Shown here: positions 4,650-24,025 of the stretch, one piece after another
Layout of the letters: each line of letters starts with the position of its first letter
Position numbering within the stretch: position 1 is the first letter of the stretch
Origin: a bacterium
Lineage (GTDB): Bacteria > Desulfobacterota > Desulfocorpusculales > Desulfocorpusculum
Assembly: GCA_037481695.1 (NCBI GenBank)
Contig: JBBFLE010000005.1
Coordinates: forward strand, 1-64,000
Length of the DNA: 64,000 nt
Direction: 5' to 3'
The notes under the pieces: model-generated
Seen by the model: the letters and a program-made list of their open reading frames with translations, nothing else
Database searches by the model: none
Told to the model about the DNA's origin: nothing
Made by a program: the position numbers and the translations under genes

Positions 4650-5447
4650 ATGGTGATCATCATAGCAGAGCGGATAAACGCCTCCCGCAAGCACATAGCC
4701 CAGGCCATAGCAACAAGAAACGCTGGCTTCCTTCAAAACGAGGTCAAGGCGCAGGTGCAGGCAGGGGCTCATTATATAGATGTGAATGCCGGGACCTTTG
4801 TGGGGGAAGAAGCCAAGCATCTGGCATGGGTCATCCAGACCGTTCAGGAGGTCACAGAGCTTCCCCTTTGTATAGATAGCCCTGATCCTTCTGTCATAGA
4901 GGCGGTCTTGCCCCTTGTACGCTCTAGGCCCATGATCAACTCCATAACCCTTGAGCCAGGTAGGCTCCAGGGCATGCTCCCCCTCGTGTCAGAGTACTCA
5001 ACCAAGGTCATAGCTCTTTGCCAGGCCGAAGACGAGATAGCCGAGACAGCAGAGGCCAAGCTGAGAATGGCCGACAAGCTTGTGGAGAAGGTTACAGCGG
5101 CCGGAGTGCCTTTGGAGGATCTTTTCATTGACCCCCTGGTGTACCCTCTGGCCACCAATCCGGTCTCGGCAGTGCAGACTCTGGAAGCCATTGCTCAGAT
5201 CATGGCCCGCTTCCCAGGAGTGCACACCACCTGTGGGCTGAGCAATGTGTCCCATGGACTTCCCAACAGAAAGCTGGTGAACCGGACTTTTCTGGTGGCA
5301 GCCATCACCAGGGGGCTGGATTCGGCCATATTGGATCCCACGGACAAACAGATTTACGGAGCCTTGAAGGCCGCAGAGGTGGTAATGGGGAAAGATGAGT
5401 TTTGCATGGAGTACATCACGGCCTTCAGAGAGGGTCGGCTGGAATGA
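4650..5447 (+). CDS. Pterin-binding (MtrH/AcsE-like) methyltransferase
   Basis: 265 residues, the usual size for the corrinoid:tetrahydrofolate methyltransferase family (AcsE, MtvA, MtrH-like). It opens with IIIAERINASRKH, the family's ERIN signature, followed by AGAHYIDVNAGT and LCIDSPDPS, which build the pterin-binding TIM barrel. TTCGLSNVSHGLPNR late in the chain is also typical. Role by family: it moves a methyl group between a methyl-corrinoid protein and tetrahydrofolate, joining demethylation to the Wood-Ljungdahl pathway. GGGGGTG precedes the ATG. It is the first gene behind the sigma-54 promoter; the corrinoid partners lie at 10476, 17367 and 18032. Direction of transfer and the exact pterin are not shown by sequence. 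Confidence 0.88.
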   Translation: MVIIIAERINASRKHIAQAIATRNAGFLQNEVKAQVQAGAHYIDVNAGTFVGEEAKHLAWVIQTVQEVTELPLCIDSPDPSVIEAVLPLVRSRPMINSITLEPGRLQGMLPLVSEYSTKVIALCQAEDEIAETAEAKLRMADKLVEKVTAAGVPLEDLFIDPLVYPLATNPVSAVQTLEAIAQIMARFPGVHTTCGLSNVSHGLPNRKLVNRTFLVAAITRGLDSAILDPTDKQIYGALKAAEVVMGKDEFCMEYITAFREGRLE

Positions 5448-5523
5448 GCCTGGACCCTGGGGGTCGGGGTAGGGAGCGTTCATCGCTTCCCGAGAGCCAT
5501 AGAACACCAATGGGAGGTGTGCC

Positions 5524-6837
5524 ATGTCCAGGAACCGCAGGGATTTCATCAAGACAGCCGGTGCGGGAATGGTGGGTGCCGGAGCCACCATGGCTTTGGG
5601 TGGGCAGTGGGCTTGGGGTGCTGCCCCTGAAGGGGTGCCCAAGGAGCCAGTCAAGATAGGGGTGATGGCCGCCCAGTCGGGGGTCATGGCAGTGCCTGGT
5701 GTGGCTGCTCTGACCGCATCCAAGATCTGGGCTGAGAAGGTCAATCAATCGGGGGGTATCCTTGGCCGCATGGTGGAGCTCAAGGTGGAGGAAGAGACAG
5801 GGGCCAAGGAAACGGTGGAGAAGTTCAAGAAACTCACCTTGCAAGAAAAGGTAGATGTGGTGGTGGGGCTCATGTCCACGGGCAATGGTCAGGCAGTGGG
5901 GCAGGAGGCAGAAGCGCTCAAGCAGCTTTGGCTTAGCTGGGATGCCACCACCCAAAAGGGCGTTGTGGAGGGGCAGCCTGTGGCCAACTACAGCTTCAGA
6001 AGCGTGGACAACGAGCTGGAGGCCATAGCAGGGGCCATCATGACAGCCAAGCATTTTCCCAACATCAAGAAGGTGGCTGGCATCAACAATGACTACTCCT
6101 ACGGCCGGGACTGCTGGGAGTCCTACTGCAGGGTTCTCAAGATGTACAACCCCAACGTGAGCTTCGAGGAATCCATCTTTCTGAAGCTGGGGGAGACCGA
6201 GTTCTCGGCGGCCATCGATGCCTTGGCTGCCAAAAAGCCAGATCTGATCATGAGCAGCTTCTGGAGCGGAGACACCACCATCTTCCTGAAACAGGCTGCT
6301 GCCAAGAAGCTCTTCGAGAATATCAAGGGCTGTTTCACAACAGGTGGTGGAGTCCATGATACTCTAAAGAAGGAGTTCACCCCCGAGGGCCTGATACTGG
6401 GTTATAACAGCATGTATTTCCGCTGGACCGACAACTGGCCCATGTTGAATGACTTCATCAAGATCTATTACGAGAGAACCAAGACCTATCCAGTGTACGA
6501 GTGCGACCATGCCTGGTTCGTGCTTCAGGCGTACAAGGCCGCGGTGGAGAAGTGCTACAGCCTGACCAAGAAGTGGCCCACAAAGGAGCAGGTCATAGAG
6601 GCATTGAGGGGAATTCAGGTTCCATCCCTTTCGGGTTACAGGGGCTATCGCAAGGACAACAAGCAGGAGTGTTGTTTCTTCATGGGAGTCACGACCCACA
6701 AGAACCCCTATGACTTTGTGACCATTGACCCTGTACAAATCTTTCCCTCTGCCAGCATCCAGAAACCCGAAGGCTACACATTCGACCAGTGGATGAAGGA
6801 GTGGGAAAAACAGGTGCAGGAGCTCAAGAAAACCTGA
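5524..6837 (+). CDS. ABC importer substrate-binding protein (LivJ-like, Tat signal)
   Basis: 437 residues of the Peripla_BP_6 (branched-chain amino acid type) family. The N-terminus MSRNRRDFIKTAGAGMV is a twin-arginine signal with a hydrophobic stretch ending near GGQWAWGAA, so the protein is probably exported already folded. The mature part begins PVKIGVMAAQSGVMAVPG. Liv-type binding proteins in anaerobes often bind aromatic or other carboxylates rather than amino acids, so the ligand cannot be read from family alone. GGGAGGTG precedes the ATG. Permease and ATPase genes follow in the normal order. Confidence 0.9.
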   Translation: MSRNRRDFIKTAGAGMVGAGATMALGGQWAWGAAPEGVPKEPVKIGVMAAQSGVMAVPGVAALTASKIWAEKVNQSGGILGRMVELKVEEETGAKETVEKFKKLTLQEKVDVVVGLMSTGNGQAVGQEAEALKQLWLSWDATTQKGVVEGQPVANYSFRSVDNELEAIAGAIMTAKHFPNIKKVAGINNDYSYGRDCWESYCRVLKMYNPNVSFEESIFLKLGETEFSAAIDALAAKKPDLIMSSFWSGDTTIFLKQAAAKKLFENIKGCFTTGGGVHDTLKKEFTPEGLILGYNSMYFRWTDNWPMLNDFIKIYYERTKTYPVYECDHAWFVLQAYKAAVEKCYSLTKKWPTKEQVIEALRGIQVPSLSGYRGYRKDNKQECCFFMGVTTHKNPYDFVTIDPVQIFPSASIQKPEGYTFDQWMKEWEKQVQELKKT

Positions 6838-7004
6838 GCACATAATAAAGGGCCGCTTTTTCGAGGCAGGATCAGGCCTGCTCTTGCCGCCTGATTGATG
6901 GGCGGCCTAGGCTGGGCTCAACAAGGGGCGGCCTCCTGCAGGATATATCATTTGTGGGGGCCGCCCTGGGTCATGAAGCCTGCTGGGCAGAGGGCATTCT
7001 CAAT

Positions 7005-7886
7005 ATGGCGACGTTGCTAAACATTTTATCAAGCGGCGTTTTTCATGCCTCCATACTGTTTCTGGTGGCATCCGGGTTGCAGCTGGTCTTCGGAGTGCAG
7101 AAGGTCTTTAACCTGGCATGCGGCAGCTTTTACGCCCTGGGTGCTTACCTGGGCATCACCTTCGTGGATGTTTTCACAGGTAGGGGCGGTCCGCCTCTTC
7201 TGGCATTCATTCCCCTTTTGGCAGCAGGGATACTGCTGGGAGCCTTGGGCCCTGTGGTGGAAAGAGGGCTTTTGCGATTTGTGTACAATCGGGACGAGAG
7301 CTTCCAGTTGTTGCTCACATTCTCGGTGGTGCTCATGCTGGAGGATGTGATCAGGTTTTTCTGGGGCACGTACCCGAGATCCCCCAAGGGGGTTTACCTG
7401 GCCTTTGGCACCCTTCATGTGGGAGGGGCCGCCATTCCGGTTTACAACCTCTTGGTGATTGCGGCCTCACTACTGGTGGCCTTGTTGATGGGATACTTGC
7501 TTGAGAAAACCAGGTTCGGCAAGATCATCAGGGCAACCGCATCCAACAGCGAGATGGTCCAGGCCCTGGGCATCAGGAGCTCAGTGGTCTATGTGAAGGT
7601 CTTCACCCTGGGCACCATCCTGGGCACAGTGGGAGGTGCCCTTGTCATACCCACCACCGCCGCAGTCTCCGAGATGGCCGTTCACCTGATTGTGCTGGCA
7701 TTTGCCGTGGTGGTCATAGGCGGATTGGGGAGCATGAAAGGGGCTTTCCTGGGGGCGCTTCTGGTGGGACTTCTCAAGTCAGTTTCCATAGCGGTTTATC
7801 CGGAGCTGGAGATGATGCTCATCTATCTCATAGTTATTGGAGTATTGGTGCTAAGGCCACAGGGGCTCTTCGGAGGCGCGTCATGA
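7005..7886 (+). CDS. Liv-type ABC transporter permease (LivH-like)
   Basis: About 293 residues from the ATG at 7005 (MATLLNILSSG); an upstream in-frame GTG at 6954 would add 17 non-hydrophobic residues and lacks a good ribosome site. It is a polytopic membrane protein with the LivH pattern, beginning HASILFLVASGLQLVFGV and ending VIGVLVLRPQGLFGG. It forms half of the membrane channel with the next gene, whose ATG overlaps its last codon. Confidence 0.9.
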   Translation: MATLLNILSSGVFHASILFLVASGLQLVFGVQKVFNLACGSFYALGAYLGITFVDVFTGRGGPPLLAFIPLLAAGILLGALGPVVERGLLRFVYNRDESFQLLLTFSVVLMLEDVIRFFWGTYPRSPKGVYLAFGTLHVGGAAIPVYNLLVIAASLLVALLMGYLLEKTRFGKIIRATASNSEMVQALGIRSSVVYVKVFTLGTILGTVGGALVIPTTAAVSEMAVHLIVLAFAVVVIGGLGSMKGAFLGALLVGLLKSVSIAVYPELEMMLIYLIVIGVLVLRPQGLFGGAS

Positions 7887-8920
7887 TGTTGGGCGCACCC
7901 GAGAAAATGGGATCCAACAACGCTGCTGGGGCAGCGAGAAGGGCTTGGCATCCTTGGGTCCTGATGGCCGGATTCTTACTGGTGGCCATTGGCTGGCCTC
8001 TTGTGGGGAGGGACTATCAGGTTTACTTGAGCCTCTCGTTCTTCTCCTACTCCATAGCCCTGCTGGGTTTGAACCTGCTTTTCAATTACACAGGGCTCAT
8101 ATCCTTTGGACATGCCCTCTTCATAGGAATAGGAGGATACACCGCTGCTTTCATGACCCACAAGTATTCTTTACTGAACATGGAATTGATCATTCTGATA
8201 GCAGTTTTCTTGAGCGGGCTTGTGGCCCTGCTCATAGGCCTCATCTGTGTAAGGTACATAAAGATATACTTTGCCATGCTTACCCTGGCCTTCGGGATGC
8301 TCTTCCATTCCTTTTTGATGAAGACTTACAGTCTCACCGGTGGTGACGAGGGAATGCATGTAATGCAGCCCAAGCTTCTTGGGTTTGATCTGAGCCACAT
8401 GGACAAGATGAGCTTTTTTTCAGGGCCATATTATTACTACAACCTGGTTTTCTTTGCACTGGCCTCCTATCTGATGTGGAGAATAGTCCATTCCCACTTC
8501 GGGCTTTGCATTCAGGCCATAAGGGACAATCCGGACAAGGCCGAGTACCTGGGCATCTCCATAAGGAGGTACAGGCTCTATGCCTTTGTGATCTCGGGTT
8601 GTTTCACGGGCCTGGGCGGAGCCTTGATGGCTCCTGTTACCGGGCACATGGATCCGGCCATGGTCTTCTGGACCCACTCTGGAGACATGGTCTTCATGAC
8701 ACTGCTGGGTGGCTTCAGCAACTTCTTTGGACCCATGCTGGGCTCCCTGGTGTTCATCTTTCTCAGGGATACGGTGAGCTCTTTCACGGAGTACTGGCGT
8801 TTCATCTTCGGGGCTTTGCTTGCAGCCCTTGTAATACTGGCTCCCGGGGGGCTCATGGAACTTCTCTCCAGGGGGTGGGCCGCCGTGGGAGGGCTTAGGT
8901 CCAAGGAGCAAGGCTCATGA
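7883..8920 (+). CDS. Liv-type ABC transporter permease (LivM-like)
   Basis: 345 residues, polytopic. The segment LNLLFNYTGLISFGHALF is the hallmark of LivM proteins, and the EAA-like loop contains IQAIRDNPDKAEYLGI. The ATG overlaps the stop of the LivH-like gene (ATGA) and the stop overlaps the next ATG, showing translational coupling through the importer genes. It pairs with the 7005 product in the inner membrane. Confidence 0.9.
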   Translation: MMLGAPEKMGSNNAAGAARRAWHPWVLMAGFLLVAIGWPLVGRDYQVYLSLSFFSYSIALLGLNLLFNYTGLISFGHALFIGIGGYTAAFMTHKYSLLNMELIILIAVFLSGLVALLIGLICVRYIKIYFAMLTLAFGMLFHSFLMKTYSLTGGDEGMHVMQPKLLGFDLSHMDKMSFFSGPYYYYNLVFFALASYLMWRIVHSHFGLCIQAIRDNPDKAEYLGISIRRYRLYAFVISGCFTGLGGALMAPVTGHMDPAMVFWTHSGDMVFMTLLGGFSNFFGPMLGSLVFIFLRDTVSSFTEYWRFIFGALLAALVILAPGGLMELLSRGWAAVGGLRSKEQGS

Positions 8921-9717
8921 TCCTGGAGGCCCATGACATAAAGAGATTTTACGGGGGCTTCTGCGCCCTGGATGGGGTGAGTATCTCCATTCAGGAGGGA
9001 GAGTTCGTCTCTGTGATCGGCCCCAATGGGGCAGGAAAGACGACTCTGATCAATGTGCTGACTGGTTTTCTCAAGCCAGATCATGGAAGAGTGCTTTTCG
9101 ATGGCCGGGACATTGTGGGCAAGTCCCCTGAGGAGTTGACCCAACTGGGCATTGCCAGGAGCTTTCAGCTCGTGCACGTTTTTCATGGGCTAACAACATT
9201 GCAGACCCTCCAGGTGGCGGTGGTATCCAGGCTGAGAAGAGGCACCAGATGGCTATCCAGCCTGTCATCCGACCGGGAGGTGAGGCAGCAGGCCCAAGAG
9301 GTGGCCGAGCTGTTCGGTCTGAGTGCTTTTCTGAATCAGAGGTCCTCCAGTCTTCCTCAAGGGGCCAAGAAGCTACTGGATGTGGCCTCGGCCTTTGCTT
9401 TGAGGCCCAGGATCATTCTGCTGGATGAACCCACCAGCGGGGTCAGTACCGCGGACAAGAACCTGATCATGCGTACGATGGTGGAGGCAGCCCGTAGCAT
9501 GGGCATAAGGACGATCCTTCAGGTGGAGCATGACATGGACATAGTATTTTCCTACTCTGACCGGATTGTGGCGGTGCACCAGGGCAGGATTCTGGCCGAT
9601 GGCAAGCCTGAAGATCTCCAGCACAATGAAGACGTGATCTGCACCGTGGTGGGCAAGAAGGAGTGTTTCCAAACCTTCCAATCCATCATGGAGGCCAGAA
9701 AGAGCCGGGAGCGCTGA
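8917..9717 (+). CDS. Liv-type ABC transporter ATPase (LivG-like)
   Basis: 266 residues. Walker A is GPNGAGKTT, the Q-loop region is IARSFQLVHVF, Walker B is RIILLDEPTSG, and the switch histidine is in QVEHDMD. The ABC signature is unusual: where LivG proteins have LSxGxQR, this one reads SSLPQGAKKLLDVASAF, keeping the Gly but lacking the usual Ser-Gly-Gly pattern. I believe a subgroup of anaerobe LivG proteins shares this, so it need not mean loss of activity. The gene is coupled to the neighbours by a start/stop overlap. Confidence 0.88.
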   Translation: MILEAHDIKRFYGGFCALDGVSISIQEGEFVSVIGPNGAGKTTLINVLTGFLKPDHGRVLFDGRDIVGKSPEELTQLGIARSFQLVHVFHGLTTLQTLQVAVVSRLRRGTRWLSSLSSDREVRQQAQEVAELFGLSAFLNQRSSSLPQGAKKLLDVASAFALRPRIILLDEPTSGVSTADKNLIMRTMVEAARSMGIRTILQVEHDMDIVFSYSDRIVAVHQGRILADGKPEDLQHNEDVICTVVGKKECFQTFQSIMEARKSRER

Positions 9718-9720
9718 AAG

Positions 9721-10431
9721 ATGCTGCTTAGCGTGGAAGGGCTGGAGGTCTTCATCCAGTCTAGCAGGATCCTAAGGGGAGTGAGTCTAGGCGTGGATCA
9801 AGGTGAGGTGGTTTGTCTCATAGGCCGAAACGGCGCGGGCAAGACCACTACCTTGCGCACCATAATGGGATACCTGAGACCCGCGAGGGGAAAGGTGCTC
9901 TTCAAGGGTGTGGATCTCACTCGCAAGAGCACCCACGAGATAGGGCTCATGGGCATTGGATACGCCCCGGAGGAAAGCGCCATATTCCCGGATCTGACCG
10001 TGCACGAAAACATAGAGATATCCACATGGGCAAGGCCCAGCGGCCGTTCTGTTCAGGAGAGGATAGAGCTGGCCTACGAGGTCTTCCCGGTCTTGAGGAA
10101 ATACAGGGACAGAAAAGGGACCCACATGAGCGGTGGTGAGCGAAAGATGCTCTCCATTGCCAGGGCCCTGGCCCTGGATGCAGAGCTTTTTCTGCTGGAC
10201 GAGCCCTTCGAGGGACTGGCCCCTGCTTTTGTGATCCAGGTGGCAGGAAGCATACAGAAGATAGCCCAGATGGGGATTTCCATCCTCATTGTGGAGTCCA
10301 ACATATATCACGTGCCAGACTTTGCCCAGCGCCTTTATGTGCTGGAACGGGGCGAGGTGATCTTCTCGGGCCTGCCCCATGAGGTGGCAACCAAAGAGGA
10401 AGTTCTGAGGATAATCGCCGGAGCTGCCTGA
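9721..10431 (+). CDS. Liv-type ABC transporter ATPase (LivF-like)
   Basis: 236 residues, the standard LivF length. Walker A GRNGAGKTTT, signature MSGGERKMLSIARAL, Walker B LFLLDEPFEGLAP and a final switch region with IVESNI (Asn where many have His) are visible. It completes the five-gene importer (5524-10431) as the second nucleotide-binding subunit. It begins three bases after the LivG-like stop. Confidence 0.9.
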   Translation: MLLSVEGLEVFIQSSRILRGVSLGVDQGEVVCLIGRNGAGKTTTLRTIMGYLRPARGKVLFKGVDLTRKSTHEIGLMGIGYAPEESAIFPDLTVHENIEISTWARPSGRSVQERIELAYEVFPVLRKYRDRKGTHMSGGERKMLSIARALALDAELFLLDEPFEGLAPAFVIQVAGSIQKIAQMGISILIVESNIYHVPDFAQRLYVLERGEVIFSGLPHEVATKEEVLRIIAGAA

Positions 10432-10475
10432 GAAGTTAAAGGCAGGAAGCCGGCGCACTTGGGGAGGATAGAAAC

Positions 10476-12251
10476 ATGGCAAGAGAGCCCAAACCTGATT
10501 TCCAAAGATACATGATGGCCCTGCATTGTGAAGAGCCGGACCGAGTTCCTTTGGGGGACTGGCATGTGGACCAAAGGCCCAAGGAAGCCTTCATGGGCAG
10601 AAAGCTCGTTACCCTGAAAGATCATGTGGATTTCTGGTACACGGCAGGATTTGATTATGTGGCCAGCTCATCAGGAATCCTGGAGCCTGTCAGGGCACCT
10701 GAAGGTATGACCGTCAAAGGGGAGGAAGTTCACACCGAGTACGGGGACAGGGTCTCAAGAGAATGGGCTCACGAGCACGAGGGGGTCATCACCAACTGGG
10801 AGCAGTTCGAGAAATATCCCTGGCCCTCGGTGGATGACTTTGATTTGTCCAAATGGGACGTGTTGGACAAGATCTTACCCCCTGGCATGAAAGCCATCTT
10901 GCTCTTGGGAAAGATCTACACGCCGGTTTGGATGTACATGGGGGCTGAGGTCTTCTTCCAGGCCCTGGAATCCAACCAGGAGCTGGTGGAGGCCATGTTT
11001 GAGAAGATAGGCCGGATACAGTATGAGACCTTCCTGAGGGTGGTGGAGCATCCCTGTGTGGGGGCCGTGCTCCATCCCGATGACATAGCTCACAATACTG
11101 GACTGCTGGTGCACCCCAAGCACCTCAGGAAATATCTGTTCCCATGGTACAAGAAGATGAGCGAGGTGTGCAAAGACAAGGGGCTGGGCCATGTTTTCCA
11201 CAGCGACGGTGACTGCACAGAGGCAATGGATGACCTCATAGAGTGTGGCTTCAACGGGTTTCATCCGGTTCAGCCCAATGCCATGGACATAGTGGAGGTC
11301 AAGAAGAGGTGGGGCAAGAGGATATGTCTTCTGGGGAACATAAACCTGGATTCCACCCTGACCCTTGGAACACCAGAGGATGTGAGAGCCGAGGTTTACG
11401 AGAGAATACGCACCATAGCTCCGGGAGGAGGATACATGGTCTCTTCTTCCAACTCCATAACAGACTATGTGCCTCTCGAAAACATGAAAGCCATGATAGA
11501 TGCCACATTCGAGTTTGGGAAATACCCCATTGAGCTCGAGGAGGGCAGGATTAAGGGCAAGATCTGGACCTTCAGGGGCAAGCCCCTGAAAGGCTCGGCA
11601 CAGGAACTGGATTCTGAAATGGATGTTGAGGCATATGCCACGGCCCTGCTGAGTCCCAAGAGTGACAAGGCCATAGGGCTGGTCCAGGAGGTACTGGACA
11701 GAGGCGTCAGCGCCTCAGATGTGCTTTCAAAAGCACTGATCCCGGCCATGGGACTGGTGGGCCAGAAGTTCCAAACGGGCCAGATCTATATTCCGGAGAT
11801 GATGATTGCTGCCCGCAACATGGCGGCAACTGTCAATCATTTCAAAGACAGGCTTGTAACATCAAGGGGCCAGGCCAGGGGCAAGGTGGTTATCGGAACC
11901 GTAAAAGGAGATCTTCATGACATAGGAAAGAATCTGGTTTGCATGATGTTGGAAGGACAGGGCTTTGAGGTCATGGATCTTGGGGTCTCGGTGGATCCCC
12001 AGAAATTCGTGGAGACAGTCAAGAAAGAGCAACCTCAAATCGTGGCCATGAGTGCACTTTTGACCACCACCATGATAGAGATGAAAAACGTGATTCAGGC
12101 TCTGGAAGCTGCAGGATTGAGACATAAGGTCAAGGTCATAGTAGGTGGGGCACCGGTGACCCAGAGCTTTGCAGATCAAATAGGAGCCGACGGATACGCA
12201 TATGACGCCCCAGGAGCAGCCCAAAGGTGTAAGGAATTGGTGGTTTCTTAA
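10476..12251 (+). CDS. UroD-family methyltransferase fused to corrinoid-binding domain (CmuA-like), copy 1
   Basis: 591 residues. Residues 1-350 are a uroporphyrinogen-decarboxylase-fold methyltransferase. About 385-460 is the helical cap (B12-binding-2) and 468-590 the Rossmann corrinoid domain with DLHDIGKN (lower axial ligand His481), SALLTTTM and VGGAPV. This order is that of CmuA, the chloromethane methyltransferase/corrinoid fusion. The metal-site motif is HSDG (His242-Asp244) instead of the HxCG of MtaA/MtbA. Inference: it demethylates a small substrate and loads its own corrinoid; the 4650 product could unload it. The substrate is unknown; chloromethane is only one family example. It sits between the ABC and TRAP importers. 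Confidence 0.88.
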   Translation: MAREPKPDFQRYMMALHCEEPDRVPLGDWHVDQRPKEAFMGRKLVTLKDHVDFWYTAGFDYVASSSGILEPVRAPEGMTVKGEEVHTEYGDRVSREWAHEHEGVITNWEQFEKYPWPSVDDFDLSKWDVLDKILPPGMKAILLLGKIYTPVWMYMGAEVFFQALESNQELVEAMFEKIGRIQYETFLRVVEHPCVGAVLHPDDIAHNTGLLVHPKHLRKYLFPWYKKMSEVCKDKGLGHVFHSDGDCTEAMDDLIECGFNGFHPVQPNAMDIVEVKKRWGKRICLLGNINLDSTLTLGTPEDVRAEVYERIRTIAPGGGYMVSSSNSITDYVPLENMKAMIDATFEFGKYPIELEEGRIKGKIWTFRGKPLKGSAQELDSEMDVEAYATALLSPKSDKAIGLVQEVLDRGVSASDVLSKALIPAMGLVGQKFQTGQIYIPEMMIAARNMAATVNHFKDRLVTSRGQARGKVVIGTVKGDLHDIGKNLVCMMLEGQGFEVMDLGVSVDPQKFVETVKKEQPQIVAMSALLTTTMIEMKNVIQALEAAGLRHKVKVIVGGAPVTQSFADQIGADGYAYDAPGAAQRCKELVVS

Positions 12252-12469
12252 CCGGGTTTTGATAAGGGTATTTAGAAAGAGGGATGATACTGAAAAACAA
12301 AGGGGCTGCTGGCTTCTTTGACAGATTCAAGGCCAAAGCAAAAGACACAAAGAAGTTTCTGGAAGAGCAAAGGTCGGGCCATCAGATGAGCGGGCCACAT
12401 GGAATGGAACCTATGGGGACGGAAAACATGAGCGTTCCCAGAATACCAAGAGCAGAAAAGGAGGGTGCC

Positions 12470-13540: not shown

Positions 13541-13559
13541 AGGGGCCCTACATGAAAAC

Positions 13560-13601: not shown

Positions 13602-13634
13602 AAAGAGATTCAGACAAGACGAGAATAAAACATC

Positions 13635-15454: not shown

Positions 15455-16168
15455 GTGAGGGTCTGCAGAATAAAGAGAACCACGGCTGCTGACGAGGTCT
15501 TCAAGAGCCTCCACGGGCTCATGGTATCAGGGGAGCTGCGTCCAGGTGAAAGGCTTCCCTCCCAGAGGGAGCTGGCCCGGCGTTTCGAGGTGAGCCGAAG
15601 CACTCTGAGGGAGGCCATTCACAAGCTCATGGCCCTGGGGTACGTGGAACCCAGACAAGGAGTGGGGACCATTGTGGCCAGCGGGGACCCCCTCAGGTAC
15701 ATGAGCTCTTTGGAGGATCATTTCCTGCTGGATGGGGTCTCGGCCGGCGAGTTTCTGGAGGCTAGGCTCATCATAGAGACAGCTGTTGCAAGACTGGCAG
15801 TGCAGAGGTCTTCGGCACACCAAAAGGCTTGTCTTAGGCGGCTGGTGGAACGCCAGGTGCAGGCCGCGCATACGGGTGCCTTGGAAGAGTTCAGCAGGTT
15901 GGATACAGAGTTTCACCTAAGCCTGGCCGCCTTGAGCAACAATCGGGTGCTGGTGAAGCTGGAGGAGACCATACTGGATCTGCTCAGGCAGTTCATCAGG
16001 AAGGTCTCGGATCTGCCCGGAGCAGTGGAAGACGCCCTCATGTTCCACAGAAGGATCTTGGATGCCTTGGATGCGGGGGACTCCAGGGAGGCCGAGAAGG
16101 CCATGGCCTCTCACCTAAGGGATGTGGCCCGAAGGATCAAAGGATACCTGGGCGTGAAGGTGCTTTAG
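15455..16168 (+). CDS. GntR-family transcriptional regulator with FCD domain
   Basis: 237 residues starting at GTG with GAGGAGGT eight bases upstream. The winged helix-turn-helix is clear (about 12-75: GERLPSQRELARRFEVSRST, then LREAIHKLMALGYVEPRQG) and is followed by the all-helical FCD domain, which in this family binds small organic acids, often through a metal held by histidines (EFHLSLA, FHRRILDAL). It is placed between the TRAP genes and the MtaA-type gene, so it may control the TRAP operon, the methyltransferase genes after it, or both. No convincing operator was found. Confidence 0.88.
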   Translation: MRVCRIKRTTAADEVFKSLHGLMVSGELRPGERLPSQRELARRFEVSRSTLREAIHKLMALGYVEPRQGVGTIVASGDPLRYMSSLEDHFLLDGVSAGEFLEARLIIETAVARLAVQRSSAHQKACLRRLVERQVQAAHTGALEEFSRLDTEFHLSLAALSNNRVLVKLEETILDLLRQFIRKVSDLPGAVEDALMFHRRILDALDAGDSREAEKAMASHLRDVARRIKGYLGVKVL

Positions 16169-16297: not shown

Positions 16298-17308
16298 ATG
16301 AAGAGCACCCCTTACAACCTTGTCATGTCAGCCCTTTTAGGCGGGCGTAGGGCACAGCGCCCCCCTGTGGGAAACCCAACCTCCATAGTTTGCCATGGGC
16401 TCATGGATGCATGCGGTGTCTCATTTCCTGAGGCCCACCTGGATGCCCAGGCCATGGCAGAGCTGGCCCTGGCTGGCCACGAGGTGGTGGGCTTTGACAC
16501 GGTCATGCCTGAGTACAGCGTGCATCAGGAGTCTGCGGCCCTGGGCTGCCAGGTGGACTGGGGCAGCAAAGACAGGATGCCCGATGCCAAGAACTTTCCC
16601 TACGCGGATTTCTCCGACATCCAGGTCCCGGATAACATCCTGGAAAAGCCATCCATGCGGGTGGTCCTGGATGCCCTTTCTTTGCTGAGAAAACACGTGG
16701 GGGGACAGGTGGCCATCTGGGGGAAGGTCATGGGGCCATGGACCCTATCCTACCACATGGCTGGAACCCAGAACTTTCTGCTACAGGTGGGGATGGGTGA
16801 GAAGGAGAAGGTGACCCGCATGCTGCGTCAGTTGATGCCGGTTACCATAGAGTTTGCCAATGCACAACTCAGGGCAGGGGCGGATGCTGTTGTGCTGGCT
16901 GACCACGCCACAGGAAATCTCGTTGGGCCGTACACATACGAGGAGTATCTTCTTCCCATCCACCAGGAGATAACGGCCCAGATCGGCGGACCCGTGATAC
17001 TCCACGTTTGCGGCAACTGCACGGACAGGCTGGATCTTTTTGCCCGCTCAGGAGTGGATGCCTACCACTTCGAGTGGCAGGTGGACGCCCGGGAAGCTGT
17101 GAAAAGGGTGGGAAACATCATCTCCCTGGTGGGGAACGTGAACAATCCCAGGGCATTGTTGCAGGGCACACCAGAGGATGTTTATGCCCAGGCCCGCTAT
17201 GCCATCGAGGCGGGTGTGAACATCATAGGACCCGAGTGTGCGATTCCCCTGGCCACTCCCCTTGATAACCTCAAGGCCATAGTGGAGGCGGCAAGAGAGG
17301 GTTACTGA
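16298..17308 (+). CDS. MtaA/MtbA-type zinc methyltransferase (UroD family)
   Basis: 336 residues, the length of methanogen MtaA/MtbA (methyl-corrinoid:coenzyme M methyltransferases). The zinc ligands line up closely: HVCG gives His236 and Cys238, and GPECAIPL gives Cys314, compared with His237, Cys239 and Cys316 of MtaA. HGLMDACGV near the start is also typical. In a bacterium the acceptor is probably not coenzyme M unless the organism makes it; another thiol, or an indirect role in passing methyl groups between corrinoids, is possible. The corrinoid protein gene follows. Upstream, 16169-16297 shows no clear promoter. Confidence 0.85.
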   Translation: MKSTPYNLVMSALLGGRRAQRPPVGNPTSIVCHGLMDACGVSFPEAHLDAQAMAELALAGHEVVGFDTVMPEYSVHQESAALGCQVDWGSKDRMPDAKNFPYADFSDIQVPDNILEKPSMRVVLDALSLLRKHVGGQVAIWGKVMGPWTLSYHMAGTQNFLLQVGMGEKEKVTRMLRQLMPVTIEFANAQLRAGADAVVLADHATGNLVGPYTYEEYLLPIHQEITAQIGGPVILHVCGNCTDRLDLFARSGVDAYHFEWQVDAREAVKRVGNIISLVGNVNNPRALLQGTPEDVYAQARYAIEAGVNIIGPECAIPLATPLDNLKAIVEAAREGY

Positions 17309-17366
17309 GATCAAGTGGATCAGCATTTGTGCTGATGAAAAATCGATGGAAGGAGAAATACGCTCC

Positions 17367-18008
17367 ATGGCAGAGCATGTTGAGATCATAAAAGAGGCAG
17401 TGATAAAGGGAAAACATAAGGAAATAGAGCAGTTGGTGAGACAGGCCGTGGAGGAAGGAGTGGAGCTGGAAAGGCTCATCCAGGAGGGCATGATAGAGGC
17501 CATGGACGTGGTGGGCAAGAAATTCGCCGATGGGGTCATCTTTGTGCCCGAGATGCTGGTTGCGGCAGTGACCATGAAGAAGGGGCTCGAGCTCATAAAG
17601 CCCATGCTCAAGGCAGACAGCAGATCCAGCGGTCGCATAGTCATGGCCACAGTCAAGGGAGACCTGCATGACATAGGCAAGAACCTTGTCATAATGATGC
17701 TGGAGGGAGCCGGCTTCCAGGTCACAGACCTGGGGGTGGACATAGATGTGGAGACCCTGGTGCAGAAAGTCCAGGAGCTAAAGCCCCAGTTGCTGGGGCT
17801 ATCGGCACTGCTTACCACCACCATGCCCGAGATGGCCAGGGTGATCCAAGCCCTTGAGGCCGTGGGTCTCAGGGAAAAGGTCAAGGTGATGGTGGGAGGA
17901 GCCCCTGTGGATCAGAGATTTGCGCAGCAGATAGGCGCTGATGGTTATGGAAAAGATGCTGCCGAGGCTGTGGAGCTGGCCAAGAGGCTGGTGGCCGGGT
18001 CCCACTGA
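17367..18008 (+). CDS. Stand-alone corrinoid protein (MtaC/MtbC/MttC family)
   Basis: 213 residues from the ATG at 17367, which has AAGGAGA in front; an in-frame ATG seven codons earlier (17346) lacks one. The helical cap domain (about 1-80, ending FADGVIFVPEMLVAA) is followed by the corrinoid Rossmann domain with GDLHDIGKNL (axial ligand His101), SALLTTTMPEM and GGAPV. It is the methyl shuttle partner for the zinc methyltransferase upstream and perhaps for the 4650 pterin methyltransferase. Its C-terminal half resembles those of both fusion proteins, suggesting duplication within the island. Confidence 0.92.
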   Translation: MAEHVEIIKEAVIKGKHKEIEQLVRQAVEEGVELERLIQEGMIEAMDVVGKKFADGVIFVPEMLVAAVTMKKGLELIKPMLKADSRSSGRIVMATVKGDLHDIGKNLVIMMLEGAGFQVTDLGVDIDVETLVQKVQELKPQLLGLSALLTTTMPEMARVIQALEAVGLREKVKVMVGGAPVDQRFAQQIGADGYGKDAAEAVELAKRLVAGSH

Positions 18009-18031: not shown

Positions 18032-19939
18032 ATGACCCATAAAGAACGCATTCTCATGGCAGCAAGGGGTGAGATGCCAGATGTGCTTCCTTATGTGCCG
18101 CGTTTTGACCTCTGGTACAATGCCAACCGATATCGGGGCACTCTTCCGGTTCAATACAGGGACAAGACCCCTGATGAGATAGCCAGGGCAGAGGGCTGGG
18201 CGCTTCACAAGGTGGTCCCTGAACTCCTGAACGTGGAAACAGAGCAGGACAACCTCTACCGCGCCATAGGGCTTTATGGCCTGAAGGAGTGTGGTTACGA
18301 GATCCGGTTTTCCCCCAGCGTTGAGGTCAGAGCAATTCCCTTGTCAGACTCCCTTAGGGTGGAGTACCACACACCCAAGGGTGTGATCAGCACCACCGAG
18401 GTGGTCACAGAGGAGATGAGGGGTGCAGGTGCCACCATCACATGGGTGGAGGAGAGGGCCATAAAGAGCTCCGAGGACTATGAAAGGCTGGCATATCTTT
18501 TTGAGCAGGCGGAGGTGGTGCCTCAGTACGAACGCTATGCCCGCTGGAGGCAGGACATAGGGCAAGGCGGGGTGGCAGTGCTCATGGGCAGCCTGGCCGC
18601 ATCCCCCATGCTCCATATCCAGAGAGATCTCTTGGATGCCACCAGGTTTTTCTACGAGTACCACGACCGCCAGAAAGAGATGAGGAAGCTGGCTGAGAGC
18701 CTGGAGTTCCTATATGAGAGGATTCTAAAAGTAGTGTGCGATTCCCCTGCAGAGGTGGTGCTCTGGGGGGCCAACTACGACGACATGATCACATATCCCC
18801 CCTATTTCCAAAAGGAGATCCTGCCCTGGCTTCAAAAAGCATCCCGGGCCTTGCAGGAAAAGGGCAAGCTCCTGCTGTGTCACTGCGACGGGGAAAACAT
18901 GGGCTTGATGGATCTTATCAGGGACTCTGGAATGCATGTGGCAGAGGCGGTTTGTCCTGCTCCCATGACAAAGATTCCCATAGAGGAATACTACAGGAGA
19001 TGGAAGGATCATCTCACCATCTGGGGCGGCATTCCCCAAAGCATGCTCTTGGCAGAGACAGCTTCGGATGAGGAGTTCCAGGCATACCTGGATCATTTCT
19101 TCAAGGCAGTGGCCCCAGGACAAAGGGTCATAGTGGGGATCGCGGATACAACTCCTCCCAATGCGGTCTTCGACAGGCTTCGCCGTATTGCAGATGAAGT
19201 GGCCAGGCACGGACGCCTCCCGTTGGAGGCAGGGGGCCTAAGACCAGTCCAAGGGCTGATGCCAGAGGCCCTGGAGGCTGCTGGGGAGGAGCTGCAAGAG
19301 GCCGAGATCTTCCATGCAGTGAGAAAGGCTGTGCTGGCCGGTGATCATGTGGGAATCCAGGCCAGTGTCAGGGAGCTTCTGGCACGAGGGATCCCAGCAG
19401 GGGATATACTGCACAAGGGCATGATTCATGCCATGGAAGCCATCGGGGCCAGGTTCAAAAGAGGGGAGGTGTTCATTCCCGAGGTGCTCCTTTCGGCCAG
19501 GGCCATGAACGAGGCCCTCAAGGTCCTGGAGCCCCATCTGGCAGGACAGAGGGTGGAAAAGGCAGGCCGGGTCCTCATAGGGACAGTGCGGGGAGATCTC
19601 CACGACATAGGTAAGAACATGGTGGCCACCATGCTAAGGGGAGTGGGTTTCCAGGTGCGAGACCTTGGCATCAACGTGAGCACAGAGCAATTCGTAAGAG
19701 AAGTTGAATCAACAAACCCTGACATACTGGCTCTGTCGGCACTGCTTACCACCACCATGCCCGAGATGGCCAAGGTCATCCAGGCCTTGAAGGCCAAAGG
19801 TTTGAGAGACCGCCTAAAGGTGATGGTGGGCGGGGCTCCTGTGAACCAGAAGTTTGCTCAAGAAATAGGAGCCGATGGCTATGCCCAGGATGCAGGAGAG
19901 GCCGTGGGCCTGGCCAAGCGGCTCATGGAGGGGAGGTAG
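18032..19939 (+). CDS. UroD-family methyltransferase fused to corrinoid-binding domain (CmuA-like), copy 2
   Basis: 635 residues with the same order as the 10476 gene: UroD-type barrel (about 1-395), helical cap (about 425-505) and corrinoid domain (from about 510) with GDLHDIGKNM (His524), SALLTTTMPEM and GGAPVNQ. The catalytic barrel has HCDGE (His284, Asp286), again Asp where MtaA has its zinc Cys; a separate Cys is present in AEAVCPAP (Cys308). The barrels of the two fusions are clearly diverged while the corrinoid halves stay close, so they probably handle different substrates or enantiomers. GAGGAGGT lies ahead of the ATG. Confidence 0.88.
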   Translation: MTHKERILMAARGEMPDVLPYVPRFDLWYNANRYRGTLPVQYRDKTPDEIARAEGWALHKVVPELLNVETEQDNLYRAIGLYGLKECGYEIRFSPSVEVRAIPLSDSLRVEYHTPKGVISTTEVVTEEMRGAGATITWVEERAIKSSEDYERLAYLFEQAEVVPQYERYARWRQDIGQGGVAVLMGSLAASPMLHIQRDLLDATRFFYEYHDRQKEMRKLAESLEFLYERILKVVCDSPAEVVLWGANYDDMITYPPYFQKEILPWLQKASRALQEKGKLLLCHCDGENMGLMDLIRDSGMHVAEAVCPAPMTKIPIEEYYRRWKDHLTIWGGIPQSMLLAETASDEEFQAYLDHFFKAVAPGQRVIVGIADTTPPNAVFDRLRRIADEVARHGRLPLEAGGLRPVQGLMPEALEAAGEELQEAEIFHAVRKAVLAGDHVGIQASVRELLARGIPAGDILHKGMIHAMEAIGARFKRGEVFIPEVLLSARAMNEALKVLEPHLAGQRVEKAGRVLIGTVRGDLHDIGKNMVATMLRGVGFQVRDLGINVSTEQFVREVESTNPDILALSALLTTTMPEMAKVIQALKAKGLRDRLKVMVGGAPVNQKFAQEIGADGYAQDAGEAVGLAKRLMEGR

Positions 19940-19942
19940 GAA

Positions 19943-20689
19943 TTGCTCTTGGAACAGCAAGAGGGGGGGTTAAGGGACCCCGGGGAAAAAGCTTCATGGA
20001 ATGGCCCCAGGGTGCTCATAGCTTGTAAGGTCATGGAGCCTGAGCTAGAGAGCCTGCGGGAAATGATCCAGGGAGTGCAGGTGCGCTATGTAGAGCAGGC
20101 CCTCCACAGGGTGCCCCAGAACATGGCCTCCAGGGTGCAGCAGGAGATAGATAGGGTTTCATCCTATGCGGGTCTTGTGATCCTGGGCTACGGGCTTTGT
20201 TCCAACGGGATCGTGGGGGTGGTTGCGCCTCCTCAAGGCCTAGTAGTTCCCAAGGCCCATGACTGCATAGCACTCTTTTTGGGCTCCCTGGAGAATTACA
20301 GGAGATCTTTTGGGGAGAGGCCTGGGACCTATTACCTGACACCCGGATGGGTTGCAGAGCACAAAGATCCCCTGGGCATCCTGCAGGAGTATATCCAGCG
20401 CTACGGGGAAGAGACCGCCCAGTGGGTGATGACAGAGGAACTCAAGCATTACACCCACATAGCTCTCATAAACAGTGGAGTCGGAGATGTAAAGAGGCTA
20501 AGAGAGCGGGCCAGGGAAAATGCCAGATACTTTGGCAAACAGTACCATGAGATAGCCGGTGATCTCTCATACTTGAGGAGATTGCTTCAGGGGCCTTACA
20601 CTGATGAAGATTTCTTCTTCATTGCTCCTGGGGAGAAGGTCACCCAAGAACGCTATCTGCAAGAGGCTCTGGCATGCGCGTCATCATGA
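19943..20689 (+). CDS. DUF1638 protein of a methyltransferase locus
   Basis: 248 residues from a TTG start with GGGAGGT six bases upstream. The core RVLIACKVMEPELESL and LVILGYGLCSNGIVGV are characteristic of DUF1638, a family commonly met beside corrinoid methyltransferase genes in anaerobes. It has conserved Cys and His residues (ACKV, GLCSN, HDCIALFLG) that could bind metal. The molecular function is not established to my knowledge. It starts three bases after the second fusion gene and its end overlaps the LarA-type gene by 16 bases, so all three are coupled. Confidence 0.8.
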   Translation: MLLEQQEGGLRDPGEKASWNGPRVLIACKVMEPELESLREMIQGVQVRYVEQALHRVPQNMASRVQQEIDRVSSYAGLVILGYGLCSNGIVGVVAPPQGLVVPKAHDCIALFLGSLENYRRSFGERPGTYYLTPGWVAEHKDPLGILQEYIQRYGEETAQWVMTEELKHYTHIALINSGVGDVKRLRERARENARYFGKQYHEIAGDLSYLRRLLQGPYTDEDFFFIAPGEKVTQERYLQEALACASS

Positions 20690-21966
20690 ACTATGGTCGA
20701 GAGGGTCTGGCCGTAGACTTGCCCGATGAGTGGGATGTGAGGGTAATTCGCAAGAGGCCCATGCCCGTCCTGGAAGATCCATTGGCTGCCATGAAAGCTG
20801 CCCTTGAGAACCCCGTTGGTTGTGCTCCCCTAAGGGACCTGGCCAAGGGAAAGAGGACTGCCTGCATCCTCATCTGCGACATCACCAGGCCAGTTCCCAA
20901 CAGAGTGATTCTACCTGTCCTCATAAGGACGCTTATGGATGGTGGGTTGGATCCGGGAAACATACAGGTCCTGGTGGCCACAGGCCTCCACAGGCCCAAC
21001 CAGGGTCAAGAGCTGGAGGAGCTGGTGGGGGATGAGTGGGTTCTTGCCACGGTTCCAGTGGAGAACCACTTTGCCCGTCAGGATTTGGACCACGTGGAAG
21101 TGGGGATCACGAGTCATGGGGTGCCTGTGCTCTTGGACAGGCGTTTTGTGCAAGCCCAATTGAAGATCGTCACCGGTTTGGTGGAGCCGCACTTCATGGC
21201 AGGTTATTCCGGGGGCCGAAAGGTGATCATGCCAGGGGTGGCCCACAAGAGCACCATAACTGCTCTTCACACGGCTCGCTATTTCGAGCATCCACGCTCT
21301 GCCAACTGCATCCTGGATGGGAACCCCCTTCACGAGGTACAGCTGGAGGTGGTACGCATGCTGGGAGGTGCCCTGGCCGTAAATGCAGTAATAGACGAGC
21401 ATCGCCGGATCTCTTTCTTGAATTTTGGTGAGATCCAAAGAAGCCACCTGGAGGCCGTAGGCTTCGTGAGGCCTTATGGGGAGATACCGGTCTCGGAGAA
21501 GTTTCGCACAGTGCTCACTAGCAGTGCCGGTTACCCCCTGGACAGAACCTACTATCAGACCGTGAAGGGCATGGTGGGGGCCATGGATCTCCTGGAGCCA
21601 GGGGGAGACCTTTTCATTGTGAGCGAGATCTCCGAAGGCTTCGGTTCCCTAGAGTACCGAGAGGCCCAGGAGAGACTAATGCGGCTTGGCTCAGATGGGT
21701 TTCTGCAAGAGATCCTCCCAAGAGATCACGCCCTCATAGACGAGTGGCAGACCGAGATGCAGCTAAAGCCCATGAGGGTGGGACAGATTCACCTTTACAC
21801 CAAGGCTCTGGATCCAGAGGAAAGGGCCCTGACCGGGGTAAGGATAATAGAGGATCTGGAGGGGGAGATCCGAAGGAGCGTGGAGCGCTCTGGCCAGAGG
21901 AGGATCGTGGTCTTGCCAGAAGGGCCTTACGTGGTTCCCATTTACAGATCCCCTTCCCATCAGTGA
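20674..21966 (+). CDS. LarA-family nickel-pincer 2-hydroxyacid racemase/epimerase
   Basis: 430 residues. Catalytic positions match Lactiplantibacillus LarA almost number for number: Arg72 (DITRPVPN), His106 (GLHRP), His173 (EPHFMAGYSGG), Lys183 (GGRKVIMPG, which anchors the nickel-pincer nucleotide) and His199 (ALHTARY), compared with Arg75, His108, His174, Lys184 and His200. The enzyme family racemises or epimerises alpha-hydroxy acids by hydride transfer. LarB, LarC and LarE, needed to build the cofactor, are not in this window. Its place in a demethylation operon suggests that a hydroxy acid is a product or substrate of the pathway, but that is inference. Confidence 0.85.
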   Translation: MRVIMNYGREGLAVDLPDEWDVRVIRKRPMPVLEDPLAAMKAALENPVGCAPLRDLAKGKRTACILICDITRPVPNRVILPVLIRTLMDGGLDPGNIQVLVATGLHRPNQGQELEELVGDEWVLATVPVENHFARQDLDHVEVGITSHGVPVLLDRRFVQAQLKIVTGLVEPHFMAGYSGGRKVIMPGVAHKSTITALHTARYFEHPRSANCILDGNPLHEVQLEVVRMLGGALAVNAVIDEHRRISFLNFGEIQRSHLEAVGFVRPYGEIPVSEKFRTVLTSSAGYPLDRTYYQTVKGMVGAMDLLEPGGDLFIVSEISEGFGSLEYREAQERLMRLGSDGFLQEILPRDHALIDEWQTEMQLKPMRVGQIHLYTKALDPEERALTGVRIIEDLEGEIRRSVERSGQRRIVVLPEGPYVVPIYRSPSHQ

Positions 21967-22099
21967 CCGCTTTGAGTCCATCAACCTTGGCCCCAAGGGG
22001 TGAATCCATTGCCTTGGATCAAAGTTTAGGCCCCTGGGGGCATGGGTTGGGAATCCGGGCCCTTTGGCAGGTTGTTTTTGGGAGGGGGCAGACTTTTGC

Positions 22100-24025
22100 A
22101 TGTGCGCAAGAGATCTTCTTGTGGAAAATAAGTCCCATATGTGCAGGGTAATCCTTGAGCCTTCCGGTATGTCCCTGGAGGTTCCCCGTGGCACCACCAT
22201 ATTGGAAGCTGCCTCAGGTGCTGGTTTCAGAATCAGGGCCGAGTGCGGAGGGAAAGGTCTCTGCGGCAAGTGTATTGTAAAAGTGCACCCCCCTGAAGGG
22301 GCGTCGCCGCCTGAGATCGCGGAATCAGAGTTTATAACGCAGAAGGAACTCGAGGCAGGCATCAGACTGGCCTGCCAATGCAGGATAGAGGGCTTCCTCA
22401 GCGTTGAGGTGCCTCCTGAGTCCCAGGAGACTGAGGAGGCCCTGGGTAAGATTGCCCTCAGAGGCAGATACAGGGTGGATCCAACGGTCAAGAGGCTTTT
22501 TCTTGCTGGCTCTGGAGCCTCCCTGGGGGATGAGCGCCAGCCTTCAGACCTGGTGGAAAAGTTGCTGGAGCGCTTGGAAGAGCTCGGCATATTGCCTGAG
22601 CCCAGGCTGGAGCTTGGCGCCTTGCGGGAGCTCAGCATGAGCCCCTCCCTTCAAGGTGACCTCACCGTTATTTGCCACAAGGATCGAGGCATAACGGGGA
22701 TAAGAGAGGGTATTAAACAACCAAGCCTGGGGGTGGCCCTGGACATAGGCACAACCACCCTTGCCGCCTATCTGTGTGATCTCACAAGCGGTGAGATCCT
22801 TGCCTCGGCAGGCGTAGCAAATCCCCAGAGGCGATTTGGGCAAGACGTGATAAGCCGCATAGGTTTTGCAAGCCAGGGACGAGGTTCCCTCCTGGAGCTG
22901 CACCGTGAGGTGATTCAAGGCCTCAATGGACTGATCCACAAGTGTCTGGCCAGAGCCAGGGCTGCTGCCCAGCAGGTGGATGAGGTGGTGGCTGTGGGGA
23001 ACACTTGCATGGTGGAGCTCTTTTCCGGGCTCAATCCCAGGGCCCTGGGCGCGGCTCCCTATCTTCCGGTAACCAGGAGCTTCCCTGACCTGAGAGCAAG
23101 CGAGCTGGGATTAGAGATTTCCCCTGGGGCAAACGTGCACATTCTGCCTGTTATCTCGGGCTTCGTGGGGGCAGACACGGTCTCTGCCATTTTGGCCGAC
23201 GGCCTCCACAACAGGCATGAGATCACCCTTCTTGTGGACATAGGCACCAACGGCGAGATAGTGCTGGGAGGCAGATGTGGGCTTTGGGCCACCAGCTGTG
23301 CCACGGGCCCGGCACTGGAAGGAGCGCATATAAGCTGCGGCATGCGGGCAATCAGGGGGGCCATCCATAGGGTTTGGGAGCATGGTGGCAGATTGCATTG
23401 GGAGACCCTGGGAGGCCCAGAGGCAAGGCCCAGAGGCCTTTGCGGATCAGGGATAATAGATGCCATTGCCACCTTGAGGTCCATGGGGGTGATCCTTCCT
23501 TCGGGGAGGCTCAAGGAGGAGGCCCCTGGGGTCATTTTGGACGAAAAGGGCATTGGAAGAGCATTCCCTCTGGTGGGGAAGCAGGACACGGCCACGGCAA
23601 AGGACATACAGATAACCCTAGGGGACATACGCCAGATCCAGTTGGCCAAGGCAGCCCTGTGCGTGGGCATCATGTTCTTGATGCGGAGGGCAGGGGTGGA
23701 GAGGGTGGACAGGCTGGTTTTGACAGGCGCCTTTGGAGCCAGATTCGACTGGCGCTCGGCGGTGGCCATAGGGATGATTCCCCAAGAGGCAATCTCCGGA
23801 GAGGTGGAGACCATGGAGAATGCAGCGGGCCTGGGAGCGGTCATGGCCCTTCTGGATCAGGGCCAAAGGCGTGAGGCGGCCAGCCTTGCCAGGAGCGTTA
23901 AGGTTTTGGAGCTGGCTCAAGAGCCTGACTTCGGGGTTGAGTATCCCATGGCCATGGGCTTTCCTGCAGCAAGATGGGAAGAGTCCCCAGATCTCACCCC
24001 AGAAAGGGACATTCTGGTCCCATGA
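22100..24025 (+). CDS. RACo-type corrinoid activation protein ([2Fe-2S] + ASKHA, DUF4445)
   Basis: About 641 residues from the ATG at 22100 (GGAGGGGG upstream); an ATG at 22139 is also possible and would begin right at the ferredoxin fold. Cysteines AECGGKGLCGKC (49, 55, 58) plus ACQC (92) make a [2Fe-2S] site. The large C-terminal part has ASKHA phosphate motifs VALDIGTTTLAAYL and LVDIGTNGEI and ends its fold with GAFGARFDWRSAVAIG. RACo/RamA-like proteins use ATP to reduce inactive Co(II) corrinoid back to Co(I). It should serve all three corrinoid proteins of the island and is its last gene. Confidence 0.9.
   Translation: MCARDLLVENKSHMCRVILEPSGMSLEVPRGTTILEAASGAGFRIRAECGGKGLCGKCIVKVHPPEGASPPEIAESEFITQKELEAGIRLACQCRIEGFLSVEVPPESQETEEALGKIALRGRYRVDPTVKRLFLAGSGASLGDERQPSDLVEKLLERLEELGILPEPRLELGALRELSMSPSLQGDLTVICHKDRGITGIREGIKQPSLGVALDIGTTTLAAYLCDLTSGEILASAGVANPQRRFGQDVISRIGFASQGRGSLLELHREVIQGLNGLIHKCLARARAAAQQVDEVVAVGNTCMVELFSGLNPRALGAAPYLPVTRSFPDLRASELGLEISPGANVHILPVISGFVGADTVSAILADGLHNRHEITLLVDIGTNGEIVLGGRCGLWATSCATGPALEGAHISCGMRAIRGAIHRVWEHGGRLHWETLGGPEARPRGLCGSGIIDAIATLRSMGVILPSGRLKEEAPGVILDEKGIGRAFPLVGKQDTATAKDIQITLGDIRQIQLAKAALCVGIMFLMRRAGVERVDRLVLTGAFGARFDWRSAVAIGMIPQEAISGEVETMENAAGLGAVMALLDQGQRREAASLARSVKVLELAQEPDFGVEYPMAMGFPAARWEESPDLTPERDILVP

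Follow-up and report, generated by a model that had tools for sequence, protein, structure and literature searches.

The window analysed here, a stretch of 64,000 nucleotides (contig C5:1-64000) from a genome of the genus Desulfocorpusculum, harbors an island of about 20 kb for corrinoid-dependent methyl transfer, and many uncultured relatives keep the same gene set. Our reading is that the island encodes a corrinoid-dependent pathway for the O-demethylation of one or more small methylated carboxylic acids, and we put the probability of this at about one half. Among the points in its favour is the complete set of methyltransferase I, corrinoid protein, methyltransferase II and activator. Gene content, motifs, conservation and co-occurrence are seen in the sequence; from these we infer the order of the reactions, the oxygen chemistry and, above all, the substrate. 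Only tentatively do we extend this to an undescribed pathway, widespread in uncultured anaerobic Desulfobacterota-like bacteria, which would O-demethylate short-chain aliphatic methoxy or hydroxy acids by means of two oxygen-type barrels of separate clades and one thiol-type barrel and would feed the Wood-Ljungdahl route. The genome (4.10 Mb, 52 contigs, estimated 100% complete) encodes acetyl-CoA synthase and dsrA, as found by genome search, and the host is probably a sulfate-reducing bacterium.

Gene content and conservation of the island

The genes of the island and the features directly upstream of it are the following:

854-2875, + strand: PAS histidine kinase (Pfam)
2869-4326, + strand: NtrC-type sigma-54 response regulator (Pfam)
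4459..4473, + strand: weak sigma-54-like site GGCACAAAGCTTGCT upstream of the first gene (pattern match; tentative)
4650..5447, + strand: pterin-binding methyltransferase (MeTr), methyl-corrinoid:tetrahydrofolate (PF00809; NF005719 327 bits, cut-off 259)
5524..10431, + strand: complete ATP-binding cassette (ABC) importer LivK-H-M-G-F (Pfam, NCBIfam)
10476..12251, + strand: fusion A (FusA), URO-D barrel with B12-binding_2 (corrinoid cap) and B12-binding domains (Pfam)
12284..15451, + strand: complete tripartite ATP-independent periplasmic (TRAP) importer DctP-Q-M, binding protein probably of the lactate/2-oxo-acid subfamily (profile and structure-relative searches)
15455..16168, + strand: GntR/FCD regulator with NanR/LldR/PdhR-like scores (Pfam, NCBIfam)
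16298..17308, + strand: MtaA/CmuA-family methyltransferase with His-Cys-Cys zinc motif (TIGR01463 253 bits, cut-off 235.4; motif HVC...PEC)
17346..18008, + strand: free corrinoid protein (PF02607 and PF02310)
18032..19939, + strand: fusion B (FusB), divergent URO-D barrel with corrinoid domains (Pfam)
19943..20689, + strand: DUF1638 protein (PF07796, 151 bits)
20674..21966, + strand: LarA-family nickel-pincer 2-hydroxyacid racemase (PF09861/PF21113)
22064..24025, + strand: RACo/AcsV-type ATP-dependent corrinoid reductive activator (PF14574, PF17651, PF00111)

Between 4650 and 24025 every assigned gene lies on the plus strand, with short gaps or overlaps between neighbours; beyond 24364 the genes are of unrelated kind (kinase, sulfatase, PAP2, cytochrome peroxidase, glycogen genes). 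Profile searches with Pfam and NCBIfam placed the pterin methyltransferase, the MtaA-type enzyme, the free corrinoid protein, the two fusions, the activator and both complete importers where the initial annotation had put them. Its gene list was right in these parts and had omitted DUF1638, LarA, the GntR/FCD regulator and the upstream histidine kinase/NtrC pair.

When the barrel of fusion B was scanned against 84,980 species genomes, 26 loci were found, all of them in metagenome-assembled genomes and 49-68% identical, with hosts among Desulfobacterales, Syntrophales/Syntrophaceae, other deltaproteobacteria, Burkholderiales and one Spirochaete. The neighbouring genes of related loci were called with a codon model. 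Barrel A, barrel B, the MtaA-like enzyme, the corrinoid protein, the pterin methyltransferase and the TRAP importer recur together in several families, and as a rule the activator and DUF1638 accompany them. Since the same gene set recurs in many genomes, the island is more than a chance grouping, and its description as one coherent methyl-transfer island is borne out.

The Syntrophaceae loci (L036, L041 and L047) carry MeTr, fusion A (75-78%), DctPQM, fusion B, DUF1638 and RACo; their MtaA-like gene (77-79%) and corrinoid protein stand after fusion B in L041 and L047 and upstream in L036, and in L041 the three genes directly upstream of MeTr are FTHFS, FolD and MTHFR. A genome of the same family as the host (L074/L075, with fusion B split across contigs) has NtrC, histidine kinase, MeTr (77%), fusion A (79%), DctPQM, fusion B (69%), DUF1638 and RACo. 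Pooled over Desulfobacterales and similar loci (L034, L037, L040, L045 and L058), which singly do not show every part, the genes are GntR, an MtaA-like enzyme, an unfused A-type barrel (35-38%), corrinoid protein, fusion B, MeTr, LarA (52-63%) and RACo. The TRAP genes of L045 and L037 are 74-76% identical to those of the window for DctP and DctM, and lower for DctQ. In other families of the phylum (L082-L086) both barrels are unfused and their partners are the same. Homologues of the Liv importer adjoin the system in L035 and L053.

Counts were taken over the 28 loci in which barrel B has 4 kb or more on either side. Near this barrel stand a corrinoid protein in 14 loci, a TRAP importer in 13, an A-type barrel in 12, MeTr in 11, DUF1638 and RACo in 8 each and LarA in 4, the A-barrel and MtaA counts containing some mutual cross-matches; GntR, like LarA, is found in few of them. 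The TRAP figure compares with 0.115 per locus expected from the TRAP density of the host's own genome (p ~4e-6, a value that is optimistic because the loci are related). Among 148 relative genomes, barrel B is present in 14 and A-like proteins in 25, and all 14 fall within the 25 (Fisher 3e-13); the A-like threshold lets in distant superfamily members, and this test ignores relatedness and genome size.

The Burkholderiales-type loci (L050, L053 and L056) hold two B-type fusions, a TRAP importer, a PhyH dioxygenase and a sugar-type ABC importer, with a ketopantoate-hydroxymethyltransferase-like gene also in L050 and L056. Such islands may represent a partly aerobic form of the pathway.

Metal sites and relationships of the barrels

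Alignment places the metal site of FusA at H242-S-D244, with Asn at the position of the third Cys, and that of FusB at H284-C-D286, with the third Cys absent; the MtaA-like enzyme and CmuA have His-x-Cys plus the third Cys. The His and Asp of the site are invariant in 19 B homologues and 11 A homologues. In the UroD superfamily, His-Cys-Cys is reported to mark methyltransferases acting on sulfur or selenium, whereas O-demethylases have a carboxylate or a non-ligand instead of Cys (Kountz and Balskus, PMC10418091). By this zinc-ligand rule FusA and FusB, being His-x-Asp, would be oxygen-type demethylases, and the free His-Cys-Cys enzyme would be thiol-type.

The phylogeny of the fusion barrels that the initial annotation had called for places the A barrels, the B barrels and the island MtaA-like enzymes in three separate clades. 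Fused A sequences nest among unfused ones, so the A fusion would be a later event within the same system; fused B sequences form a sister group of the unfused ones, which points to a single split. A search of a plasmid collection returned CmuA and one distant fusion, and no close relatives. This distant protein (L061:5575-7314, plasmid of the gut bacterium Vescimonas fastidiosa) is a URO-D/corrinoid fusion near glycine-cleavage and amidohydrolase genes, and in the tree it is the sister of the B-barrel clade (0.997 support, long branch).

AlphaFold models of the fusions have a mean predicted local distance difference test score of 83 (FusB) and 73 (FusA). Their corrinoid halves match MttC, MtaC and MetH B12 domains, and the barrel model of FusA matches 4ay7 (TM 0.70 on target) and UROD; Foldseek searches with the full fusions, FusB included, returned mostly the corrinoid half. 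The MtaA-like enzyme is 33% identical to 4ay7 and scores 268 bits against the MtaA equivalog (cut-off 400). With TIGR01463 (mtaA_cmuA, cut-off 235.4) FusA reaches 55.2 bits and FusB has no match. CmuA is 24-28% identical to FusA and matches only the corrinoid half of FusB, and a C-terminal CdmB fragment of 136 residues is 26% identical to barrel A and ~22% to barrel B. Clear orthology of the fusions with an enzyme of known substrate, which the initial annotation had named as the finding that would undo its view, was not seen among the enzymes compared (CmuA, the CdmB fragment and 4ay7). By these comparisons, which for MtvB, OdmB, VdmB and MtoB are comparisons of descriptions, FusA and FusB appear as a new variant of the UroD-superfamily corrinoid methyltransferases.

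Several known systems share parts of this design. CmuA, the chloromethane methyltransferase of Methylorubrum extorquens CM4, passes its methyl group to tetrahydrofolate. The fusions resemble it in layout, a single protein with a URO-D-type barrel ahead of its corrinoid domains; they differ in the metal site, which is His-Cys-Cys in CmuA, and neither a TRAP nor a Liv importer is among the annotated neighbours of cmuA. The MtvB, OdmB, VdmB, MtoB and CdmB systems likewise consist of a UroD-superfamily methyltransferase I, a corrinoid protein, a pterin-type methyltransferase II and a RACo-type activator, and CdmB is without zinc. In these systems, however, methyltransferase I and the corrinoid protein are unfused, and the descriptions consulted mention no TRAP, LarA or DUF1638. 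Type 1 mlp clusters (PMC10418091) have several UroD-superfamily barrels, one corrinoid protein and one activator, but, apart from a few Mlp1, their barrels have His-Cys-Cys, and the clusters act on methyl-Se/S and come without a tetrahydrofolate methyltransferase; the island has MeTr, and His-x-Asp in two of its three barrels. Finally, the split methionine synthase/glycine-betaine system of Phaeobacter and Ruegeria shares the pair of DUF1638 and a RACo/RamA-like protein, a pterin protein and a free corrinoid protein. Its methyl donor or acceptor enzyme is MtgB, of the MttB superfamily, or of homocysteine type, whereas this genome has no MttB homologue.

The initial annotation had seen novelty in the number and mix of the parts, a view that needs correction. 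Multi-barrel corrinoid clusters and URO-D/corrinoid fusions are already known from CmuA, mlp and Acetobacterium dehalogenans, the last with 26 methyltransferase systems, and type 1 mlp clusters have up to three MtaA-like barrels (PMC13222342, PMC10418091). The oxygen-type UroD demethylases MtvB, OdmB, VdmB and MtoB are known as well (summarised in PMC13222342), and the single pieces of the island are of known kinds. A literature search found no paper naming this island or gene set. Two things are undescribed in searchable papers: the B-barrel clade itself, and the conserved association of oxygen-type barrels of both the A and the B kind with a thiol-type barrel, DUF1638 and a TRAP importer of lactate type.

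Proposed reactions and candidate substrates

In the pathway that we propose, the acid would be taken up by the TRAP importer and possibly also by the Liv importer. The His-x-Asp barrels of FusA and FusB would move the ether methyl group to Co(I) in the corrinoid domain fused to each of them, perhaps also to the free corrinoid protein, and MeTr would pass it to tetrahydrofolate; methyl-tetrahydrofolate would then enter the Wood-Ljungdahl route for oxidation or assimilation. Corrinoid oxidised to Co(II) would be re-reduced by RACo with DUF1638 as its presumed partner in reactivation, a role suggested by a fitness link of DUF1638 to B12 reactivation in Phaeobacter (PMC5764234). On a separate branch the His-Cys-Cys MtaA-like enzyme would exchange methyl groups between the corrinoid protein and a thiol or thioether, the thiol partner probably not being coenzyme M made via ComA. 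The demethylated product would most likely be a short-chain 2-hydroxy acid, whose enantiomers LarA may interconvert ahead of further oxidation.

Some candidates were set back by searches of the host's own genome. MtaB and the MttB superfamily have no match at E 0.001, which speaks against methanol and MttB-type amines as substrates and also against the betaines among the initial suggestions. ComA, the one coenzyme M route covered, likewise has no match at E 0.001, and coenzyme M as methyl acceptor was set back on this ground.

The carboxylate-type importer makes a methylated acid likely, as had been supposed. Contrary to the initial annotation, the substrate is not unrecognisable in class: the metal site points to oxygen demethylation, and DctP with LarA to molecules resembling 2-hydroxy or 2-oxo acids. 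The nearest solved relatives of DctP are 4pe3 and the calcium-lactate binding protein TTHA0766 (E 5e-60), followed by 2-oxo-acid binders. Most island DctPs of the 30-74% group have D/E before W/F, which by the TakP and TTHA0766 structures would be the acidic residue of the metal site; the window and L045 have Asn there. As called, DctP (12284-13540) carries about 60 surplus residues before a second methionine and a signal-like segment (MGRKASWAATVLTFGLLLWG), and its true start may lie downstream. The nearest solved relative of LarA is LarA_Ip (9eid, E 2e-104), a racemase for short-chain aliphatic 2-hydroxy acids (PMC11851776). LarA has the Lar_N and LarA_C domains with the catalytic motifs GLHRP, EPH and GGRK, falls below the lactate racemase equivalog (324 bits, NF033504 cut-off 460), and LarC, the gene searched for synthesis of the nickel-pincer cofactor, is present in the genome. 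Because DctP appears to fall in the lactate/2-oxo-acid family and the closest relative of LarA is a short-chain 2-hydroxyacid racemase, we favour a small aliphatic methoxylated acid over an aromatic one, with a 2-hydroxy acid as the likely product. Beside the islands of L036 (2440-3807), L045 (5001-6281) and L037 (965-2254) lie proteins of similar length, two of them weakly Lar_N/DUF362-like and the third without a Pfam match, which are possible further relatives of the LarA fold.

Several observations weigh against the proposed pathway. The zinc-ligand rule is correlative and its source is a preprint; with 24.4 bits, the barrel of FusB barely clears the Pfam URO-D cut-off of 23.9 (FusA reaches 66) and found no solved relative by sequence (phmmer against the PDB). 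The island DctP types differ, with identities of 22-74%, so different islands may import different acids. LarA is missing from most related islands (present in 4 of the 28 loci), which makes LarA and the 2-hydroxy acid the weakest part of the substrate argument, and its gene may be an accessory one or part of a distinct lactate operon.

Methoxylated aromatic acids of the vanillate kind, demethylated as in Acetobacterium, Moorella and Methermicoccus and with importers that carry lignin monomers, are a rather unlikely substrate in our estimate. They are suggested by weak matches of LivK to the aromatic-acid binding proteins 4evq and 4ey3, by the methoxyaromatic substrates of the characterised UroD-superfamily O-demethylases found in papers, and by a putative methoxyaromatic methyltransferase cluster expressed by a Desulfatiglandales metagenome-assembled genome (PMC10989822). 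The likeness of DctP and LarA to proteins for small aliphatic acids and the low identity of the CdmB fragment to both barrels argue otherwise, and the classified genes of the related loci include no aromatic-ring gene. We consider it improbable that the pathway serves methylthio compounds, with the MtaA-like enzyme as the demethylase and the fusions acting on related S-methyl acids such as methylthio-hydroxybutyrate: the His-Cys-Cys site of the MtaA-like enzyme is of the S/Se type, its gene and the corrinoid gene are conserved neighbours, and without ComA the thiol partner is left open, but both fusions lack the Cys ligands, and contig C26 of the same genome holds a separate cluster of apparent methyl-S/Se type.

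It is slightly more improbable still that two modules merely adjoin each other, one for uptake and racemisation of a lactate-type acid (TRAP, GntR and LarA) and one for methyl transfer, whose substrate would enter through Liv or by diffusion as a methyl halide or methyl ether. Such an arrangement would agree with the few related loci that have LarA and GntR, with the 27-28 TRAP systems or permeases of the genome and with chloromethane being a substrate of CmuA and CdmB. Yet the TRAP genes accompany barrel B across families, within the gene order and above expectation, several Desulfobacterales loci keep LarA next to the system, in some cases together with DctPQM of the same type, and the fusions differ from the His-Cys-Cys site of CmuA.

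Should the O-demethylation of aliphatic acids be the correct reading, an unnoticed pool of aliphatic methyl ethers would be tied to the Wood-Ljungdahl pathway, and a three-barrel system with an importer of 2-hydroxy/2-oxo-acid type would point to methylotrophy on such ethers in anoxic habitats. For a protein family that is known here from metagenome-assembled genomes only, there would also be a short list of substrates that can be tested, and DUF1638 would gain another genomic link to corrinoid reactivation.

Regulatory genes and a second methyl-transfer cluster

The histidine kinase/NtrC pair at 854-4326 probably regulates the island. Homologues of the pair flank related islands in L074 (NtrC 68%, histidine kinase 51%), L047 (histidine kinase 64%, NtrC 63%) and L041 (NtrC 63%). 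The sigma-54 pattern has two matches in the window against 0.39 expected, and one of them stands ahead of the first gene; since a search upstream of related islands found no such site, this one is tentative.

The second methyl-transfer cluster of the genome (L062/L063, G000:C26:1-35062) contains several MtaA-like genes, a corrinoid protein, RACo, CobW-like GTPases and an oxidoreductase resembling models near selenium genes, and it looks like the type 1 mlp clusters. One of its MtaA-like genes (G000:C26:25468-26454, minus strand; L009:1480-2490) has one in-frame TGA, which stands where the third zinc-ligand Cys is expected (FAPG-TGA-DMPYDVP versus VLAPGCGIAPMTP). A 7-bp hairpin with the loop GGU lies 3' of this TGA, its folding z-score not being significant, and a search of the genome for tRNA-Sec gave a match of 74.6 bits. 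The TGA probably encodes selenocysteine.

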